From an uncultured Rhizobium sp. (GTDB lineage: Bacteria; Pseudomonadota; Alphaproteobacteria; Rhizobiales; Rhizobiaceae), in assembly GCA_945952415.1 (NCBI GenBank), contig CAMFIF010000015.1, positions 35,529 to 99,528 of the forward strand: DNA of 64,000 nucleotides. The letters are read 5' to 3'. Position 1 is the first letter of the stretch. Each line of letters opens with the position of its first letter. A program made the translations under genes and the position numbers. Below are positions 28,991-46,748 of this stretch, in pieces. The notes under the pieces are model-generated. The model had not been told where the DNA came from. It saw only the letters and a list, made by a program, of their open reading frames with translations, and searched no databases.

Positions 28991-29992
28991 TCATGACCAG
29001 GCAGGAATGAAAATACGCTTCAATGGCACGAGCTGCTGGGTCTCGAGGTCGAGCTTATCGTACTGCTCGAGCAGGCTTTTTACCAGATCGTCAAGATCCA
29101 TGAGCGCAGTCGGGATGCGGGCGCGTTCGGCCTCATAGCGCGCCTCGCGGGTAAAGCCGCCGGTGCTGACGTAGAGGCCCTTGTCGAGGTCATGCCGTCC
29201 GGCAATGAAATTGCGCAGGTCCGGCGCGCCCATGGAACCTTTGCGATGCTTGACCTCCACAACGATGCGGGGCGCCTCGAACCCAAAGCCATCGGGCGAC
29301 GCGACAATATCCTTGCCGCGATCAGGCCCGGCCTCTGAAATCCTTGTCTTGTAGCCAAGGGAGCGAAGCAGGCCGGCAACCAGCTCCTGCATCTCCTCCC
29401 AACCAAGCGCGCTCACCTTGTCCTTTATGAATTCCCGCGCGCGGTTCGCCATGTTCTCGAAGATGTCGTCTTCCGCCGCCTCGCTGATGGCAAGGGGCGC
29501 TTCCGGCGGCGCCGCGCCGCGTTTGGCGAGAGCCTGCCTGAGTTCGGCCGCAACCTCATTCGACAGCCTGAAAAGGGTAGAGATTGATCCAAGGCTGTTG
29601 CGGCTCTCCACGGATAGCAGATCACGGCTGACTTCCCCTTCCCATGTCACGGAGCGGACCTGTGTATCTTCGGGGTCGATGGAGGGGTCGTGTCTGTAGG
29701 GACCGGCAATCTGACCGACGAGATAGATCCGGCTTGAAGGATCATAGGTGACGATCATGTCGCCGACGGTCATCTCGTTCACGAAGCGGTGGAGCTGACC
29801 GGCAGCCATGGCCTGGCTTTGTGGCTTTGAACCGGGATAAGTTACGGCAAACGCATTGCTTATCGCCTTGCGCGTTTTCGCGGCCGAGAGATCGCCCAGC
29901 GCCGGCCATCCGATGGCAACGACCGACTTTTCCTTGAACGCTTCAAAGAGACGCCCATTTCGCTCCGCGCGCACCATCCAGGCTTTGCTCAT
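28991..29992 (-). CDS. restriction endonuclease: N-terminal PUA/EVE-like domain plus Mrr-type catalytic domain
   Basis: N-terminus MSKAWMVRAERNGRLFEAFKEKSVVAIGW; C-terminus WEEMQELVAGLLRSLGYKTRISEAGPDRGKDIVASP...IVVEVKHRKG. Confidence 0.87.
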   Translation of the reverse strand: MSKAWMVRAERNGRLFEAFKEKSVVAIGWPALGDLSAAKTRKAISNAFAVTYPGSKPQSQAMAAGQLHRFVNEMTVGDMIVTYDPSSRIYLVGQIAGPYRHDPSIDPEDTQVRSVTWEGEVSRDLLSVESRNSLGSISTLFRLSNEVAAELRQALAKRGAAPPEAPLAISEAAEDDIFENMANRAREFIKDKVSALGWEEMQELVAGLLRSLGYKTRISEAGPDRGKDIVASPDGFGFEAPRIVVEVKHRKGSMGAPDLRNFIAGRHDLDKGLYVSTGGFTREARYEAERARIPTALMDLDDLVKSLLEQYDKLDLETQQLVPLKRIFIPAWS

Positions 29993-30302
29993 GTCACTCC
30001 CCCTATCCCGCGGACAATTCCGCACTCGCAGCCGGAATGCAATAGGATCAGGCAACAATCCAAGGTCGTTGGAAAGGTGTCTTGGACAACTAGCCATGAT
30101 GACGGTAACCCGCAGCGGATCGAGACCCAGAGGGTTCGCGCGCGCACGCGATGCTGTGTGCAGAAAATCGCCCTCGGGCACCATGAAGGGTCACGATATA
30201 TCCACCCTCAGAGGATTGCCCGGCCAGAGGAAAGATTTGCCATGCGCAACCCTGGCGTGATTGGAGGATGACAAATCCTTCAGCTGGCAATAGCCTGGCG
30301 GC

Positions 30303-32612: not shown

Positions 32613-35600
32613 CGGTTCATCCCCGCGTGGGCGGGGAATACATCGGCGTTGGTTTGGGGGCATTCGCAGAAGGCGGTTCATCCCCGCGTGGGCGGGGAAT
32701 ACCAACAGACTGCCCGCCAGTCATTCGACCGGCTCGGTTCATCCCCGCGTGGGCGGGGAATACGCGGAGGCGGTCGGCCACGATGGCGAGCAGGACGGTT
32801 CATCCCCGCGTGGGCGGGGAATACGGTCACTCCGCCGGGCGGGGTGGTGCTGGACCCGGTTCATCCCCGCGTGGGCGGGGAATACCGCGACCAGATCAAG
32901 CTCGATGCGCTCAATCTCGGTTCATCCCCGCGTGGGCGGGGAATACGCGCTCAACACCTGCGCGCGGAACGAGGCGATCGGTTCATCCCCGCGTGGGCGG
33001 GGAATACGGCCTATGACTATGCCGTGCCGATGCGGTTCATCCCCGCGTGGGCGGGGAATACTGCGCGGCGAGGAAGGTGGCTGCCTGCAATGCCGGTTCA
33101 TCCCCGCGTGGGCGGGGAATACGATAGCGCGGAAATCAGAAGGTGTCATTGTCACGGTTCATCCCCGCGTGGGCGGGGAATACATTGGCGCAGCGTCTGA
33201 GAGACGTCCGGCGGGCGGTTCATCCCCGCGTGGGCGGGGAATACTCGGCAAGGCGGGTCCAGACAACGCGCCAAACCGGTTCATCCCCGCGTGGGCGGGG
33301 AATACTGTCTCCGACCTCGACGAATTCGATCGGCATGCGGTTCATCCCCGCGTGGGCGGGGAATACGCGGATCCGCTCGCTCGCGTCCGCCTCGATAGCG
33401 GTTCATCCCCGCGTGGGCGGGGAATACTGTCAAGGGTTTCACGTACAGTCATTAGCTCACGGTTCATCCCCGCGTGGGCGGGGAATACCCCCGTTTAAGG
33501 CGTCCAAGCGCAAAGTTCCTCTGGTTCATCCCCGCGTGGGCGGGGAATACTCGGAACTGTCGTGGCAGGGGAGGCCGCACGACGGTTCATCCCCGCGTGG
33601 GCGGGGAATACGATGCACAAGCCGCAAAGGCTCAGATCAACGGCGGTTCATCCCCGCGTGGGCGGGGAATACGACGGCGCTCGCTCCTCCGCCTTCGCAT
33701 CCGCCGGTTCATCCCCGCGTGGGCGGGGAATACCCGGAGGGCAGAAAAACAGAGCCCGCGCGCGTCGGTTCATCCCCGCGTGGGCGGGGAATACGATATC
33801 CCATTTCCGTCTCTCCTGTGTTGTGGGGGTTCATCCCCGCGTGGGCGGGGAATACTTTCGGACTATGTAAAAAACGGTCTGGAGGACCGGTTCATCCCCG
33901 CGTGGGCGGGGAATACATCATGCGCGCCAACGAGCTGCTGCTGCCCTACGGTTCATCCCCGCGTGGGCGGGGAATACTATGTTGGGGTCATACAGGGTAG
34001 CTTTCCATGCGGTTCATCCCCGCGTGGGCGGGGAATACCCGCGCGGCTTGATGAACCGCCGGGTCTGCGTCGGTTCATCCCCGCGTGGGCGGGGAATACG
34101 CCGTTGAACCCGATCGTGACCTCCTCGCTGCCGGTTCATCCCCGCGTGGGCGGGGAATACGTACCAATCACCGTCGACGGTGCGCATTTCCTCGGTTCAT
34201 CCCCGCGTGGGCGGGGAATACGACGTCCAGTAATTATACATCCGCTGCGCATCCGGTTCATCCCCGCGTGGGCGGGGAATACGGCCAGCGGCCATGCGTT
34301 ATGCCGACCCTCATCGGTTCATCCCCGCGTGGGCGGGGAATACACGGCCACGGCAGGCGCAGGCTGCGCAGGAAGCGGTTCATCCCCGCGTGGGCGGGGA
34401 ATACGGCGGGCGGAATTGAGGTCTGCTCTCTCGATGCGGTTCATCCCCGCGTGGGCGGGGAATACGCAGCAAAATCAATCAGACACGTCAACGACCGTGG
34501 TTCATCCCCGCGTGGGCGGGGAATACCTTTTTGGCGGCTTGCTTCCCCAGCTCAAAGGCGGTTCATCCCCGCGTGGGCGGGGAATACTGCGGATCGCCTC
34601 GGCTCGGGACATCGGCCGGCGGTTCATCCCCGCGTGGGCGGGGAATACGCGACGCTAAAGCCGAGCATGCGGTCGCATTTCGGTTCATCCCCGCGTGGGC
34701 GGGGAATACCCGTTGTCCGCAGGGGCCGATTACCGGGCTCGCGGTTCATCCCCGCGTGGGCGGGGAATACGCGGCATGGACCTCTGCATATGCCTGTTGC
34801 GTCGGTTCATCCCCGCGTGGGCGGGGAATACCAGGCTCTCGATCCGCAGGCGCATCGTCTCGGCGGTTCATCCCCGCGTGGGCGGGGAATACCTGGCGGA
34901 TCGTCTTGGAATCAGCAAAAGCGCCGGTTCATCCCCGCGTGGGCGGGGAATACGGTAACCCATATCCGTCTCTCCTTTTTGTGGGCGGTTCATCCCCGCG
35001 TGGGCGGGGAATACCATCACTCCGCCGGGCGGGGTGGTGCTGGACCCGGTTCATCCCCGCGTGGGCGGGGAATACGGTGAAATAACTGGATTTGTGACTG
35101 ACGTCGTGGGTTCATCCCCGCGTGGGCGGAGAATACGGCGGAAAGCGGAATTTCGAAGAAAATGGCCGCGGTTCATCCCCGCGTGGGCGGGGAATACCGG
35201 GTGCGCGGGCGCGGGTTTCGTCGGCACGCAGGTTCATCCCCGCGTGGGCGGGGAATACCGCTTTGCGCAACCCGGGCCGATGCCCGTGTGCGGTTCATCC
35301 CCGCGTGGGCGGGGAATACCGTCGGAGAGGGCGGCGGTGACTAGACGGCAACGGTTCATCCCCGCGTGGGCGGGGAATACCGCATGACACGCTCGCCCTC
35401 GCAATATGACCTCGGTTCATCCCCGCGTGGGCGGGGAATACGTCCGTCCAAATATCGTTCTGAGTACTGCGATCGGTTCATCCCCGCGTGGGCGGGGAAT
35501 ACCAGGAGGCAGCAATTAAGCGTGCACTGGACGTCTGGTTCATCCCCGCGTGGGCGGGGAATACATCGCCGGCATAGAGCTCGACATTGCCGCCTGCGGT

Positions 35601-37516
35601 TCATCCCCGCGTGGGCGGGGAATACTGGTACGCATCCGACGTTCTGGCACGGGAAGCCGGTTCATCCCCGCGTGGGCGGGGAATACCGGTCCGATTGAAA
35701 TAGACGACGCAAAGCGGGCGGTTCATCCCCGCGTGGGCGGGGAATACGTCAGGGGCAGCGTAATTCGAATCGGGAATTCCGGTTCATCCCCGCGTGGGCG
35801 GGGAATACTTTGCTCAAACGGTTTCAATCCGCCGCCATGCCGGTTCATCCCCGCGTGGGCGGGGAATACGGCAACACTAAGGGCCGCTCTTTTGATCAGA
35901 CCGGTTCATCCCCGCGTGGGCGGGGAATACTACAAGGTCAGTGTGGCGGGTATTGCTACCAGCGGTTCATCCCCGCGTGGGCGGGGAATACAAATTCAGT
36001 ACATCAAGGCGTTCTGACGCCATCGGTTCATCCCCGCGTGGGCGGGGAATACTGCGCGGCAAGAAAAGTGGCTGCCTGTAACGCCGGTTCATCCCCGCGT
36101 GGGCGGGGAATACCGCACCCACGAATATCTTTGCATTCCTCAAGCCGGTTCATCCCCGCGTGGGCGGGGAATACACACGTTCTTTCGGCTCCTGAAGCCA
36201 GTGGTCCGGTTCATCCCCGCGTGGGCGGGGAATACGTCCTAACGTCAAGCGGCGTTTCCAAAAATCGCGGTTCATCCCCGCGTGGGCGGGGAATACCTGC
36301 CCGGCCGGGTTTGTAGCCTGTGCACCTCCGGTTCATCCCCGCGTGGGCGGGGAATACCTTGACGCGGGGTTCAAGCCCGTTGATGGTTTCGGTTCATCCC
36401 CGCGTGGGCGGGGAATACATCAATGTGATTTCACGGAACATAGTTGCATCCGGTTCATCCCCGCGTGGGCGGGGAATACTCAAGGGCCTCTTCATCAACG
36501 ATGAACATTTGCGGTTCATCCCCGCGTGGGCGGGGAATACATCTGCTGGACAGCCTCAGAATACCCATCCCGCGGTTCATCCCCGCGTGGGCGGGGAATA
36601 CGGTGACCCCGCCGGGTGGAGTGGTGCTGGACCCGGTTCATCCCCGCGTGGGCGGGGAATACGAGCCGCTGCTCGGGCCTCTCCGCCTGCAATTCGGTTC
36701 ATCCCCGCGTGGGCGGGGAATACCGGACAAAGACACAGGGCTTGGATACTATAATCGGTTCATCCCCGCGTGGGCGGGGAATACGGTGCTATGATCAACA
36801 CACCAATACCCGCTGTCGGTTCATCCCCGCGTGGGCGGGGAATACTGCCTTGAATGGGAAGACGAGTTCCGCAAGCGCGGTTCATCCCCGCGTGGGCGGG
36901 GAATACGCGGTGGAGAAGAGCACCGGGCCGAAAATAGCCGGTTCATCCCCGCGTGGGCGGGGAATACGTCAAGCGTCCCATATAACGCTGTCTTGCAACC
37001 GGTTCATCCCCGCGTGGGCGGGGAATACCCTAGAGGCCGGTTTTCCGGGCATTTGAAGGCCGGTTCATCCCCGCGTGGGCGGGGAATACAGCTTTTGCCT
37101 CTTCTCGCTTTGCCCGCTCTACGGTTCATCCCCGCGTGGGCGGGGAATACCTATCGGACCGAAGGCAAGCCGGACGCGGCAGCGGTTCATCCCCGCGTGG
37201 GCGGGGAATACATTCACATGGACCTGAATTTTCCGGACATTCCCGGTTCATCCCCGCGTGGGCGGGGAATACCCCGAAACCATGCATCTGCGCATGCTCT
37301 CGGCCGGTTCATCCCCGCGTGGGCGGGGAATACGGGCATTCCTGCAGCGGTTCTTCGGCTATTGCCGGTTCATCCCCGCGTGGGCGGGGAATACGTGGTG
37401 CCGATCTTCGCCCCTTCCACCGCAAACGGTTCATCCCCGCGTGGGCGGGGAATACGAAAAATCGGGCGGTTGACCTGGTTACGCCGGCGGTTCATCCCCG
37501 CGTGGGCGGGGAATAC
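32613..37516 (-). CRISPR. type I-E CRISPR array, 81 repeats and 80 spacers; crRNA sense on minus strand
   Basis: 29-nt repeat CGGTTCATCCCCGCGTGGGCGGGGAATAC on + (sense GTATTCCCCGCCCACGCGGGGATGAACCG), 61-bp period; spacers 32 nt except one of 25 nt and two of 33 nt. Confidence 0.99.
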
Positions 37517-41417: not shown

Positions 41418-41998
41418 GCGGCGGTCTCCTCGGTTGAAATGGCGTTGGTTTCGGATGAACTGGATTCAAATGGATGGCCGAAATAGTCGTAGGTCCAGCG
41501 TCGGCGGGCTTTTTCACCCCAGTAGAGAATGTCTTCAACGAAGGCGTAGAGGTTAACCTCCTCGTCCCGCGCCATCAGCAGCGCACGGCGGAGCGTCGTC
41601 ATGATCTCGGTTTCGTCTCCGCGATCGAGCGCGCCGATGAGCACCTGAAACCGAAGCGGCTTCAGAACATAGTCCGACGTATCCTGCTGCTTGCCCAGCA
41701 TACGCATCAGCCGCTTCCCGCTTGAACGGTCGGTTTTCCGGCCCGCCAGAAGGCCCGCTATCATGGCAACACGCCGGAAGCGATGGGCTTCGAAGTCTGA
41801 ACCATCGGCATTCATCCTGCGCAGGAAATCGTGAAATGCGGGCTCCAGCTCAACATCCGCTGGTGAGGCCGCCCGGCGCAATCGCGCCCGCGCTCCGGCA
41901 TCGCCGCGCCTGTTCTTTTCCTCGTCTGGATAAAGCGCCCGCCAGGCTTTGATGATTGCTTCCACTTTCGGGTTTCTTTCAATTGCAGGAATTGTCAT
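41414..41998 (-). CDS. casB: type I-E Cascade small subunit Cse2 (CasB)
   Basis: 194 aa; RRAASPADVELEPAFHDFLRR; GKRLMRMLGKQQDTSDYVLKPLRFQVLIG. Confidence 0.93.
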   Translation of the reverse strand: MTIPAIERNPKVEAIIKAWRALYPDEEKNRRGDAGARARLRRAASPADVELEPAFHDFLRRMNADGSDFEAHRFRRVAMIAGLLAGRKTDRSSGKRLMRMLGKQQDTSDYVLKPLRFQVLIGALDRGDETEIMTTLRRALLMARDEEVNLYAFVEDILYWGEKARRRWTYDYFGHPFESSSSETNAISTEETAA

Positions 41999-43650
41999 GC
42001 CACATCTCCCTTTGTGCGCTTGCGGGCTGATTTGGGTTCTGACGGTTGAAGGATGCCGAGATCGGAAGCAATCTTGCCGATGTTCCGGAGCTGCACATCA
42101 AGGCGCCGGTGCTCCTCGACAACGGCTTCGATCCGGTTGAACCGGGCGGGATCGGCGAGCGCCGGGGCCGTATGGATGTCGTAAATCCGAAGGGCCGTTT
42201 CTCGCAGCGTCCTCAACCATCCTTTCTTCAGGGTCTGGTCGTCGGGCGCATTTTGTTCGGCGATGGCACGGATGTGATCATGAAAGGCTGTTTCCGTGTC
42301 GGCGAAGAAGGCGTCGGTGGCTTCCGCGAACAGTCCGGTCTCCGTCGATTTTGCCTGTCCGGAGAACAGGGCTTGGTTCAGCGCCCTGCGCAACAGGCCG
42401 ACGACCCTGTCCGCGCTGTCGGCCAAGGAGACGGCCAGATCGGCAAGGCGCTGCGCGGACTGCTCGTCCGCGGCGATGTAGAGCGGCTGGACAGAATAGA
42501 GGTAAGTCTCGGCCTCCATGTTGTTCATGGACCAGCCGGAGGCCAGCATACGCAGTGTCTTGCCGCGCATCGCTTCGGCGGCAGGACCGTTCAGGACCGC
42601 TTTCACAACCGCAGCGGGAGAGGCGATATTACCCTTATCAACCCGGCCAACCGTCATGCCGACCCAATCGCGGTACCCCAGACGGCTGGCCTTAGGTTTA
42701 ACGCTGTAGGGTGGGTTGTCTTTAAGCTGGCGATAGGGCGTGAGTGGGTGGGTCCAGACAGAATAGTTCATGCCCCACGGCTTCTGAATGAAGCCGGTGA
42801 CCAGCGGCCCTGTTTCCCCGGTCATCGGACACTGCCCCTCCCCCCCGACAACGAGTCGAATACGCCGCGGCATGCCGAAGAAGGCCTGTGCCGGATGAAC
42901 GGCAGGATCAGCCTCAGCAATCTCCCGGGGCGGTTTCCCTTCGGAGGTGATCGTCGGGCGAAGCCAGGGAAGCACACGGCCGAGATCGGCATCGTGAAGC
43001 GCGTTCTCCCGGTTGAATTGGACCGGAAGATTGGCGAGAAGCATGCGCAGAAGCGGCACGGGCGCATTGTTGCTGATCGGCAGCACGAGTGTCGTCATCG
43101 GGCCGCCGCCGCGCATGGACGTCCGGTTCCCTGCCCCACCCGATGGCGCAAATTGCTGTAGTGTATAGAGCGCGATTGCCGCCGCTTTCAGACCAAGCCC
43201 GGGAAAACGATCCCGGTGGGTCAAGAGATCGGCATTCTTCTTCTGCCCGTTGACGCCGGGCGTATCGATCAGCAGGGCTTCGGCGGCATTCGGCTCTCCG
43301 GCCAGTTCCTCGAAATCCTGACAGAACCGGGGGCCCTTGCCGTTTTTATCGCCGAGCAGATTGAAGTGGGACCGGAGCGCCATGATACGCGCCGGCACAT
43401 CGGTTTCCGCCTCGCCATGCCAGATGTCCAGCCAGTCATCCGGCTTTGCCGGTTTGTAAACAAGGGACAGAATCCCGATGCACAATTCGATACACGCAAT
43501 GTTGAAATCGGCACGCGGCCAGTCGAAGGAAACCGCGAAATCGCCGTGCTCGACCAGAAGGTCGGAAAAGGTCATCCAGGCCTTGCCGCCCGATGCCTTG
43601 ATGACGGGAAAAACTGGATCGGTGAGTATGTTGAGCTGGGGAACAGACAT
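41995..43650 (-). CDS. casA: type I-E Cascade large subunit Cse1/Cas8e (CasA)
   Basis: LNILTDPVFPVIKASGGKAWMTFSDLL; TPGVNGQKKNADLLTHRDRFPGLGLKAAAIALYTLQQFAPSGGAGNRTSMRGGGPMTTL. Confidence 0.97.
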   Translation of the reverse strand: MSVPQLNILTDPVFPVIKASGGKAWMTFSDLLVEHGDFAVSFDWPRADFNIACIELCIGILSLVYKPAKPDDWLDIWHGEAETDVPARIMALRSHFNLLGDKNGKGPRFCQDFEELAGEPNAAEALLIDTPGVNGQKKNADLLTHRDRFPGLGLKAAAIALYTLQQFAPSGGAGNRTSMRGGGPMTTLVLPISNNAPVPLLRMLLANLPVQFNRENALHDADLGRVLPWLRPTITSEGKPPREIAEADPAVHPAQAFFGMPRRIRLVVGGEGQCPMTGETGPLVTGFIQKPWGMNYSVWTHPLTPYRQLKDNPPYSVKPKASRLGYRDWVGMTVGRVDKGNIASPAAVVKAVLNGPAAEAMRGKTLRMLASGWSMNNMEAETYLYSVQPLYIAADEQSAQRLADLAVSLADSADRVVGLLRRALNQALFSGQAKSTETGLFAEATDAFFADTETAFHDHIRAIAEQNAPDDQTLKKGWLRTLRETALRIYDIHTAPALADPARFNRIEAVVEEHRRLDVQLRNIGKIASDLGILQPSEPKSARKRTKGDVA

Positions 43651-43830
43651 GAATATGCGCTCCTACAATCTCCAGTGCGCATAGGCGCTCTGGACAAAAC
43701 CAACGAAAATCGTTTATTGAGCGCAGCAGGGAGCTGCGCTTACTTGGGTAAGACGCCCATGTGGGTCCACCTCTCGACTTCTATGCAATCAGGCACCGAC
43801 CGCGAAATCTGAGCCTGTATGCTGTTTAGG

Positions 43831-43874
43831 AATGGCGGCTGTGTGTACTATTCACGCAGCCGCCATTTTCTTTT
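43831..43874 (+). terminator. stem-loop with T-rich 3' tract on + strand; on the minus strand it lies at the predicted 5' end of the cse1 mRNA
   Basis: aatggcggctg / cagccgccatt 11-bp perfect stem followed on + by ttttctttta. Confidence 0.55.
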
Positions 43875-43898
43875 AGGGGATTCTAAAGGAGTCGTCAA
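43870..43898 (-). promoter_or_regulatory. predicted sigma70 promoter of cse1-cse2-cas7-cas5-cas6-cas1-cas2 operon
   Basis: minus strand TTGACG - 17 bp - TAAAAG. Confidence 0.5.
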
Positions 43899-43931
43899 CC
43901 CCCCTTTTAATCACCCCAAGGCTACCAACTT
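43897..43931 (-). promoter_or_regulatory. predicted protospacer plus AAG PAM targeted by the mini-CRISPR guide, overlapping the -35 of the cse promoter
   Basis: minus strand AAG-TTGGTAGCCTTGGGGTG...; matches guide positions 1-17 except position 12. Confidence 0.75.
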
Positions 43932-44016
43932 GTCCCCGCGCGGACGGGGAGCGGCGCCAACACTGGCGTGCACCCGAAGGCTACCAACGGGTCATCCCCG
44001 CGTGGGCGGAGGACTC
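43926..44016 (-). ncRNA. degenerate two-repeat mini-CRISPR in the cas3 3' region, candidate CreR/CreA-like crRNA-resembling regulatory RNA
   Basis: Sense psi-repeat A GAGTCCTCCGCCCACGCGGGGATGACCCG (43988-44016, 5 mismatches to array repeat), guide TTGGTAGCCTTCGGGTGCACGCCAGTGTTGGCG, psi-repeat B CCGCTCCCCGTCCGCGCGGGGACAAGTTG (43926-43954); both keep a 6-bp stem with 4-nt loop. Confidence 0.8.
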
Positions 44017-44021
44017 CATCC

Positions 44022-46748
44022 CTATCGTGGACTTGCTTCCCTGTCTACCTCGATAACTCTCAGGCCACGCTTGGCATCATAGACCAGACCGGTGGGCCGC
44101 ATGGTTTTCAGGTGTCCGTCCTCCCTTACCTCAAGAAGAAGAATATTCTGCTCCCATTCCGGCCAGGTCTGGTGGGTACTCTCCACAAGTGTCGAATCCG
44201 CGGGCTCGGGCAACTGGCCGCCTGAAAGGCGAGCAAGCCATTTTGTCCGGACGGAAATTTCGCTCAGCGGCCAGTTCAACCGGTCGTCGACGCCATCGCG
44301 TCTCACGAGGGGAACCAGACCTGCGCCTTCACGCCTTGCCAGCCGAATCGTGACTTGCTTCTCGCCGAGGCGCGTGCCCACATCCTCGTCAGCCGATGGG
44401 CATGTCAATTCGCCGTAGCCATTTTCCGGCTTGATGACGTTCATCTGGCCCTGTGATCGCTCCCCATAGCGCGTGCCCACCGACTTGCGATGCTTGCCAC
44501 GAAGCGCCTCAGGAAGATCGTCTTCTTCGCTGCGATAGGCCGCCTCGATCAGGCGGCGCAGGTCTTGAGGCGTGTCGAGCCTTCCCTTGTCCAGCAGCAT
44601 GCGGGCCGTGCGCCACATTACCCCGGCGAAATCGTAAACGTGAACCGCAGTCCCCAGCACGTCATTGAGCCATTCCGCCCGGACATTGTCTCCCGGCGTT
44701 GCCGTCAAGAGATAAAGGATCGGCTCGGCAATAGGCCGGTGAGGTCTGGCATGACGCCACAAACGCCCCGCTCGCTGGACGATCAGGTCCACAGGCGCGA
44801 GATCGGAAATCATCAGATCCGCATCCAAATCCAGCGATTGCTCGAGCACCTGCGTACCGATGAGAATGTGTCCCGCTCTCGCCTCCGGGGTGCTCTCCCG
44901 CCCGAACAATTCCTGCATACGGCTTTCAATAGCCAGTCGGTCATCGACCACGAAACGCGCATGGGCGAGATGGCACCGGGCGGGATCGTGCCCGGCTGCC
45001 AGCAGCCTGTCATGGCTTTCAATCGCGGCGTCGACCGTGTTGCAGATCATGATGACGGCGGCACCTTGCAGCGCAGCCTCCAGCGCGCGGACGATGCAAT
45101 CCGCCCGCGAAGCCAGGGGGCGGACCACGACGCTCCGGACGAGTTCCGGCAAGGTCTCGACCGAAAGCTCCTCCAGCCCCCCGGCAGCGCTCCAGCGCGT
45201 CAGCAGAGGATAGAGAGGGTCGTCTGCGGCCTCTGCCAACGATGTCCACATTCCGCGGCCGTCAGAAAAGGATTGGACCAAACGGTTCCGCACTTCGCGG
45301 TTCAGCGTCGCGGACAACACGATGACCGATCCACCGAGGCGAGCCTGCATTTCGACCAGCCGGTTCAGTTCTTCGCCCATATACGCATCGCAGGCATGGG
45401 CCTCGTCGACGATCAGGATGCGTCCAGCCAGGGCATACTGGCGCATGGTGAGATGCTTCTTTGGCAGGACCGACAAGAACGCCTGGTCAATGGTTCCCGC
45501 GCCGGCATCGGCGAAGAATGCTTTCTTGCGGCTGTCGCCGATCCAGGCGTTGAAGTGGGCGGCAACGCTGCCCTTGTCCCCTTTGTCCGCTCCGTCGAGA
45601 CGGGCCAAGCCATTGGCAAGCTTCGACTTGCCGTGGGCCAAGACCAGAGTGGCATCACCCTCGAACAGGCCGTTCATCGCCGCCTCAAGCCGGGCGTGCA
45701 TGGCATTTGCGGTTGCCATGGTCGGCAGCGCGACGAAGATGCCCTCGGCCCGGCCTGCCGCGACCATACGTGAGGCGAGCAGCAAGGCGGCCTCCGTCTT
45801 GCCGGAGCCGGTTCCGTCTTCGATAATGACGATTTGCGGTTCGTCTGGAATGGCAAGGGTGGCTGCCAGCGTCTGCATCGGCCGCGCCGGTCCCGCATGT
45901 GCTGACAGGTCGCCAAGGGATGCGATGCGCGCCTTCGCGGGGATCAGCCCCTTGTTAGCCAAGGCACGATCAGCGGCCTCAAGGGCCACTGGCCAATAGT
46001 CAGCAACGCCGATTTTAGAATCGGCGCACGGGAAGTATGCAAGATCAGACCCGACCCAATCCGCAAGTGTGATCAGTCCGTTGAGGGCAAAGGAAAGCTC
46101 CGCCTGCCGGCGAATCCGTTTCAAGTGACGAAGCTCAGGAAACAAGCCAATCAGTTCGGTGCACAGTTGCGCAGCGGCGGCAACGCATGCGCTGCCAATC
46201 TCGCCATCGTTCACGGCCCTGTATGGCGAAGCGGAGAGATATTCCCTCTTCGGTGCCTTCCCATGATGACCGGCGACGGCAGACACGATGAGGTCGCGCA
46301 TGCCGTCCGGCCCGAACACCGGTGTCAATGCGCTCTGGATTTCGGCCGCTTTCAATAAAACCGCCGTTGCCTCCCAATGACCGTAGCGCCGGGAGGTCAT
46401 TTCCGGCCAAGGGCCCAGAACACCAACTGGCCAAAGGTCTTGGCGCTGCGCCTGGAAGACCACAGAAATCTTGCCAAGGTCATGGAGGGCCGCCAGAAGA
46501 CCGCAAAGGCGGGCGTGATCGTCCAGAGACAGTCCGGACAGGCGCGCCTCCCGCTGCAGGCGCGTGGGATTGTTTTGAAGAAAGCGCAGAGCGCAAGCGC
46601 CTACATCCAACATGTGATGGGAGACGATCTTGTGCCCGGGCTCCTTACCGTCGTCATGTGACTTCGCCCAAAAATGCGAATGCAGAGGGGCCACGGTTTC
46701 CGTTCCATGTCTGGTTTCAGTGTTTTGTCGGCTTCGATAGTAATGCAT
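44022..46748 (-). CDS. cas3: type I CRISPR-associated helicase/nuclease Cas3 (HD + SF2 helicase)
   Basis: HD domain HFWAKSHDDGKEPGHKIVSHHMLDVG, LAALHDLGKISVVFQ; EDGTGSGKTEAALLLASRM; ILIVDEAHACDAYM; QVLEQSLDLDADLMISDLAPVDLIVQRAGRLWRH. Confidence 0.97.
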   Translation of the reverse strand: MHYYRSRQNTETRHGTETVAPLHSHFWAKSHDDGKEPGHKIVSHHMLDVGACALRFLQNNPTRLQREARLSGLSLDDHARLCGLLAALHDLGKISVVFQAQRQDLWPVGVLGPWPEMTSRRYGHWEATAVLLKAAEIQSALTPVFGPDGMRDLIVSAVAGHHGKAPKREYLSASPYRAVNDGEIGSACVAAAAQLCTELIGLFPELRHLKRIRRQAELSFALNGLITLADWVGSDLAYFPCADSKIGVADYWPVALEAADRALANKGLIPAKARIASLGDLSAHAGPARPMQTLAATLAIPDEPQIVIIEDGTGSGKTEAALLLASRMVAAGRAEGIFVALPTMATANAMHARLEAAMNGLFEGDATLVLAHGKSKLANGLARLDGADKGDKGSVAAHFNAWIGDSRKKAFFADAGAGTIDQAFLSVLPKKHLTMRQYALAGRILIVDEAHACDAYMGEELNRLVEMQARLGGSVIVLSATLNREVRNRLVQSFSDGRGMWTSLAEAADDPLYPLLTRWSAAGGLEELSVETLPELVRSVVVRPLASRADCIVRALEAALQGAAVIMICNTVDAAIESHDRLLAAGHDPARCHLAHARFVVDDRLAIESRMQELFGRESTPEARAGHILIGTQVLEQSLDLDADLMISDLAPVDLIVQRAGRLWRHARPHRPIAEPILYLLTATPGDNVRAEWLNDVLGTAVHVYDFAGVMWRTARMLLDKGRLDTPQDLRRLIEAAYRSEEDDLPEALRGKHRKSVGTRYGERSQGQMNVIKPENGYGELTCPSADEDVGTRLGEKQVTIRLARREGAGLVPLVRRDGVDDRLNWPLSEISVRTKWLARLSGGQLPEPADSTLVESTHQTWPEWEQNILLLEVREDGHLKTMRPTGLVYDAKRGLRVIEVDREASPR

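Follow-up and report, generated by a model that had tools for sequence, protein, structure and literature searches.

What does a decayed mini-CRISPR do when it lies among the cas genes themselves? The question is raised by the window analyzed here, the whole 64,000-nucleotide stretch of DNA from an uncultured Rhizobium sp., which carries on its minus strand a complete type I-E system consisting of cas3, cse1, cse2, cas7, cas5, cas6e, cas1 and cas2. The cas3 stop and the cse1 start are separated by a gap of 371 nt, in which a first-pass annotation had placed two degenerate repeats around a guide, proposing an RNA that reprograms Cascade onto its own promoter.

CreTA modules, which are type VIII toxin-antitoxin systems, have been described in type I-B systems of Haloarcula hispanica and Halobacterium hubeiense (PMC8501985, PMC9458426), in the cas3-casA gap of the type I-E system of Citrobacter rodentium (PMC12055562), and in type I-F of Acinetobacter (PMC10097628). 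Short length and poor conservation are an obstacle to finding such modules (PMC10097628). CreR RNAs, which regulate cas genes, are generally uncoupled from a toxin gene (reviewed in PMC12737573 and PMC13131331), and CreR autorepression has been reported for types I-B, I-E and V-A (PMC13131331). Both CreTA and CreR are therefore already on record for type I-E.

A two-repeat mini-CRISPR in the cas3-cse1 gap

The coordinates and letters of the mini-CRISPR were as the first-pass annotation gave them. The unit follows the end of cas3:

44022..46748, minus strand: cas3, expected to be transcribed together with the guide unit
43988..44016, minus strand: psi-repeat 1, a decayed CRISPR repeat that matches the array repeat at 24/29 positions and gives the 5' handle AUGACCCG
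43955..43987, minus strand: psi-spacer, a 33-nt guide, TTGGTAGCCTTCGGGTGCACGCCAGTGTTGGCG
43926..43954, minus strand: psi-repeat 2, an 18/29 match with a 7-bp hairpin, the expected 3' handle of the guide RNA

The CRISPR array of the window consists of 81 repeats of GTATTCCCCGCCCACGCGGGGATGAACCG, the number counted before, and the description of both psi-repeats as divergent from it was upheld. Psi-repeat 1 is the top match to the array repeat in the window outside the array, and in 2000 dinucleotide shuffles of the gap the best match did not exceed 20/29. It folds into the 6-bp core stem and 4-nt loop that had been described, with one G-U pair, and its handle differs from the array handle by one base, again as claimed. 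By its letters alone, psi-repeat 2 is within chance; it carries weight because of its 7-bp hairpin (-11.9 kcal/mol) and its right position and distance. An immune CRISPR array has several near-identical repeats and spacers against foreign DNA; this unit differs from one in its two divergent repeats and in a guide whose match lies within the same gap. A search for known RNA families in the window returned a tRNA and nothing else.

Several observations concern the surroundings. Directly upstream of cas3, the segment 46952-49140 encodes a tyrosine recombinase, assigned to the phage integrases of Pfam, together with an HTH_17/AlpA-like protein, which fits a mobile island. Within the array (32613-37516), spacers 15, 41 and 77 are near-identical, as are 24 and 73 and, to a lesser degree, 42 and 61; the array seems to have sampled related protospacers repeatedly. 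A 397-aa ORF beyond the array, at 28991-30184, looks by eye like a restriction endonuclease domain in its C-terminal part.

The guide start recurs beside a PAM and a promoter-like site

The guide opens with 17 nt (TTGGTAGCCTTCGGGTG) that have a second copy downstream, right behind AAG, at 43928-43912; this recurrence was absent from the first-pass annotation. In E. coli, AAG works as a PAM for type I-E. The stretch carries the following features:

43929..43931, minus strand: PAM AAG, immediately 5' of the target
43912..43928, minus strand: target TTGGTAGCCTTGGGGTG, 16/17 to the guide start, with its sole mismatch at position 12
43893..43898, minus strand: -35 element TTGACG of the predicted target promoter, which scores highest (9/12) among the promoter-like sites of the gap
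43870..43875, minus strand: -10 element TAAAAG, at 17-nt spacing from the -35

No such match exists in the window beyond the guide start and this target, and 5000 shuffles failed to produce one. The last bases of psi-repeat 2 overlap the PAM and target. A 32-nt R-loop starting from the target would reach 43897, at the start of the -35. A partial seed match to a PAM-flanked promoter site, which is a feature of CreTA, is present here (AAG, 16/17, running into the -35).

A promoter and terminator tool, which demands T as the last -10 base, reported nothing in the gap, and TTGACG-17-TAAAAG came from a relaxed promoter scan. Shuffled sequences score at least 9 of 12 in approximately 15% of cases, and the site is suggestive, not proven, as the promoter of the gap. 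Between it and cse1 no second good promoter was found. Nor was there a clear intrinsic terminator between the mini-ORF described below and cse1, so that cse1 may belong to the regulated transcript.

Guide and target recur together in alphaproteobacterial type I-E loci

Type I-E loci were gathered at the level of the order, the class and the phylum, with plasmids as a further source; approximately 40 alphaproteobacterial loci among them were readable. A mini-CRISPR with a guide matching a PAM-flanked site in its own gap was present in 17 of these ~40 loci, namely the window, the Hyphomicrobium MAG L003, loci L020, L021, L023, L028, L029, L030, L043, L045, L048 and L077, and plasmids of Paracoccus aestuarii, Acidiphilium cryptum, Roseomonas marmotae, Haematobacter massiliensis and Azospirillum argentinense. 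Guides matched their own gap next to a PAM in 17/19 cases, compared to 3/342 when guides were swapped between loci, a control that does not fully remove the effect of choice, the 19 guides having been curated partly by eye. In L061 and L019 repeat-like units are present and a target was not found; L058 pairs well but has AAA instead of AAG and was left out of the 17. In most loci the -35 begins 24-34 nt into the target, and bound Cascade would therefore cover it. In L043, L055, L056 and L057 the guide gene overlaps the end of cas3, whose stop codon TGA falls within the psi-repeat handle (GATGAACC or GATGACCC), in line with a guide unit transcribed with cas3. Standalone crRNA-like mini-arrays, partly complementary to cas8 or cargo promoters, were reportedly surveyed by Shmakov et al. 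in 2023, and the unit described here is like them in that its spacer lies between two repeat-like sequences and is partly complementary to a promoter region. Part of the distribution seen here may therefore be known already.

Across the 17 guide-target pairs, mismatches fell at position 6 in 12/17, position 7 in 0/17, position 12 in 13/17, position 13 in 2/17 and position 14 in 3/17. The count at position 6 is partly selected, since this position was left out of the search criterion. Position 12 lies wholly outside that criterion, and its excess of mismatches over positions 13 and 14 together was significant (Fisher p = 2.5e-5). In the CreA-Cascade hybrid, bases 6 and 12 are unpaired, and repression in Haloarcula withstood their mutation (PMC8501985). 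The only mismatch of the window, at guide position 12, thus falls on a base that is unpaired in Cascade.

The first-pass annotation had proposed a check of guide and target across related type I-E gaps, and covariation was seen in one group of relatives. In L028, L029 and L030, which belong to one genus, guide and target changed together while the cargo region downstream remained 82-90% identical in alignment: guide and target share an A-to-T change at base 5, and the pair in L029 is wholly different. A chance repeat or a plain duplication does not behave in this way. The nearest same-family systems, L074 and L075 (Cse1 ~56-59% identical), have short gaps without a mini-CRISPR, and for this reason covariation was followed in other loci. 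A scan of genome contigs for close cse1 relatives returned two distant Hyphomicrobium MAGs only, and a scan of viral contigs returned none.

The phylum-wide set of 27 loci contained one clear case, L120, and one further match, in L139, which was discounted. The guide of L120 is on the opposite strand, the orientation seen in Citrobacter rodentium, and has an 11-nt match to an AAG target; its mismatches include position 12, but 13 and 14 too. Within the sampled loci the guide device is concentrated in Alphaproteobacteria, and the position-12 signal has no independent replication outside the class.

Candidate cargo of the targeted promoter

Downstream of the predicted promoter, the gap carries the following features ahead of cse1:

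43831..43867, minus strand: hairpin with which the transcript is predicted to begin, -24.1 kcal/mol, z -6.65
43768..43775, minus strand: Shine-Dalgarno sequence GAGAGGTG, -10.5 kcal/mol to the 16S tail
43740..43760, minus strand: creT-like mini-ORF of six codons, ATG GGC GTC TTA CCC AAG TAA (MGVLPK)
43718..43742, minus strand: second hairpin, directly behind the stop of the mini-ORF, with the core GCGCAGC-TCCCT-GCTGCGC
41995..43650, minus strand: cse1 (cas8e), first gene of the Cascade operon, ~212 nt past the predicted start of the repressed transcript

The z-scores of the hairpin at +1 ranged from -5.0 to -6.65, and that of the segment from the Shine-Dalgarno sequence to the second hairpin was -2.59. 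A short ORF with a Shine-Dalgarno sequence this strong is unexpected in the gap (p = 0.009, shuffles). TTA is the rarest codon by codon usage taken from the genes of the window (0.31 per 1000 among 6435 codons), ranking first in a looser gene set too, and tRNA-Leu(UAA) is represented by one gene among 38 tRNA matches in the assembly, which is 93% complete. The features shared with CreTA thus comprise psi-repeats around a psi-spacer, a short ORF with a strong translation start and a stable stem-loop beside it.

Similar arrangements occur in the relatives. A tiny ORF behind a strong Shine-Dalgarno sequence was present in 6 of 14 gaps tested (the window, L021, L023, L043, L055 and L059), compared to 0.86 expected from shuffles. 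Rare codons (TTA, ATA, AGA, AGG, CTA) made up 10/50 codons in short mini-ORFs, whereas their share among all triplets of the same non-coding DNA was 6.4% (p = 0.001). The mini-ORF of L021 contains two adjacent ATA codons, like CreT of H. hubeiense. That of L059 (Haematobacter) is without a rare codon, and so the feature is not universal. Most cargo RNAs open with a strong hairpin near the predicted +1.

Other gaps carry different cargo. L077 has a longer ORF. In L020 the targeted promoter precedes a 35-aa hydrophobic peptide (MLKIAEMILSQILSTIVDWLVSEAIQWMVLIFGYY) and then an intrinsic terminator. In L028-L030 it precedes the gene of a conserved protein of 103 aa, which starts with TTG behind a very strong Shine-Dalgarno sequence and is possibly repressed by Cascade; this protein had no Pfam match, an insignificant PHROG match and no convincing family. 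Small HTH-like proteins lie between cas3 and cse1 in L003 and L019, with weak PHROG matches to phage DNA-binding proteins and no convincing family found. Finally, L048, L057 and L058 have no space for a cargo gene: cse1 itself comes first behind their targeted promoter, as expected for CreR.

Discussion

The proposal that Cascade is reprogrammed onto its own promoter stood in part. A partial, PAM-flanked target lies on the gap's only good promoter, recurs across alphaproteobacterial type I-E loci and shows mismatches mostly at non-pairing positions; on these grounds the mini-CRISPR is very likely a CreA/CreR-like guide device directing Cascade to a promoter between cas3 and cse1. That this promoter is Pcse1 held only by half, as it lies 212 nt and a mini-ORF ahead of cse1. 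CreTA appears likelier than plain cas autorepression because the promoter would first transcribe a CreT-like RNA comprising a hairpin, a strong Shine-Dalgarno sequence, the TTA mini-ORF and a second hairpin. The locus is probably a type I-E CreTA-like module that includes a tRNA-sequestering short RNA, and it is fairly probable that the repressed RNA is a toxin.

The known modules agree with this assignment to different extents. H. hubeiense CreTA likewise has two divergent psi-repeats around a psi-spacer, and archaeal type I-B CreTAs share the PAM-flanked partial promoter match (bases 1-5 and 7-11 pair) and the few-codon mini-ORF followed by a stem-loop, theirs carrying rare codons. Unlike these, the window is of type I-E, has an extra hairpin at the 5' end and a cas3-cse1 location, and uses a single TTA (leucine), whereas archaeal CreTs have two adjacent rare codons, AGA or AUA. 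CreTA of C. rodentium is alike in subtype, in its cas3-casA gap and in a partly complementary guide by the type I-E PAM and promoter; in contrast, its creA is on the opposite strand, and its 96-bp ORF has no rare codons and must be translated. No ORF similar to the latter was found in the gap of the window. The Acinetobacter module shares a cas3-effector gap holding a guide and a mini-ORF with a Shine-Dalgarno sequence, whereas its divergent orientation, non-canonical seed and hairpin around the start codon set it apart.

The main rival is a CreR: the cas operon would itself be what the guide device represses, cse1 would be transcribed from the promoter at 43898-43870, and the rest up to cse1 would be a structured 5' leader. 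CreR resembles the window in having a mini-CRISPR guide on a promoter upstream of the Cascade operon and has been reported for type I-E (PMC13131331); the uninterrupted stretch from the target promoter to cse1, and the three relatives in which the targeted promoter runs directly into cse1, also favor it. However, the putative leader holds a toxin-like mini-ORF and strong Shine-Dalgarno sequence (p = 0.009) between hairpins, as at other cargo-bearing loci, and the L020 cargo, ending in an intrinsic terminator, cannot simply be a cse1 leader. We therefore consider a CreR alone unlikely for the window. Read-through into cse1 could make the locus a toxin module and a cas autoregulator at once.

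Somewhat less likely still is that Cascade controls the RNA but that the effect comes from the peptide MGVLPK or from a function other than tRNA sequestration. The cargo does vary by locus, from the 103-aa protein to the HTH-like proteins and the hydrophobic peptide, and the CreT of C. rodentium acts through translation and lacks rare codons (PMC12055562). A six-residue peptide is nevertheless an unlikely effector, and the rarest codon sits within the mini-ORF. A decayed remnant of a small array, with the downstream copy a duplicated repeat-spacer unit of no function, would fit two degenerate repeats and a second copy directly after psi-repeat 2 but is highly improbable, simple duplication being rejected on account of the unequal offset from the repeat hairpin (29 vs 26 nt), the targets in relatives, whose distance varies and which follow AAG or ATG and mostly precede a -35, the mismatches clustered at positions 6 and 12, and the joint change of guide and target.

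Returning to the CreTA-like module, we infer the following course for RNA processing, repression, toxicity and tRNA targeting, each step going beyond the DNA sequence. The two-repeat mini-CRISPR would be transcribed together with cas3 and cut by Cas6e, and the resulting guide RNA, expected at ~61 nt with the 5' start AUGACCCG-UUGGUAGCC, would be loaded into Cascade. Guide bases 1-11 and 13-17 would pair with the AAG-flanked site running into the -35. Judging by work on CreTA, a guide match of 11-17 nt is presumably too short for interference, so that Cascade would stay on the site and block transcription. Upon Cascade failure, the CreT-like RNA would be released, sequester the single tRNA-Leu(UAA) and poison translation, making the host dependent on Cascade. 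Transcription that continues into cse1 may bring in cas autoregulation too, for which co-transcription of cas3 with the guide and the lack of a clear terminator before cse1 leave room.

More broadly, and tentatively, the cas3-cas8e gap of alphaproteobacterial type I-E loci may be an exchangeable cargo slot. One kind of guide device, whose match to its target is maintained apart from bases 6 and 12, would then control varied cargos, among them RNA toxins that deprive the cell of tRNA-Leu(UAA). This tRNA was not found as a CreT target in the CreT literature searched. A leucine (TTA) CreT and the cargo slot in Alphaproteobacteria are thus possible new elements.

The comparison of loci yields a signature usable for finding further modules, in which a guide matches a PAM-flanked promoter site apart from bases 6 and 12. 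The same drift pattern is evolutionary evidence that the guides act inside Cascade as RNA-DNA hybrids. The locus would be a clear new example of the known 'addiction' switches, with unusually strong comparative evidence. If its RNA is indeed a leucine-tRNA-sequestering toxin, bacterial CRISPR addiction would extend to a further tRNA, and damage to the Cascade genes would be costly for the host bacteria.
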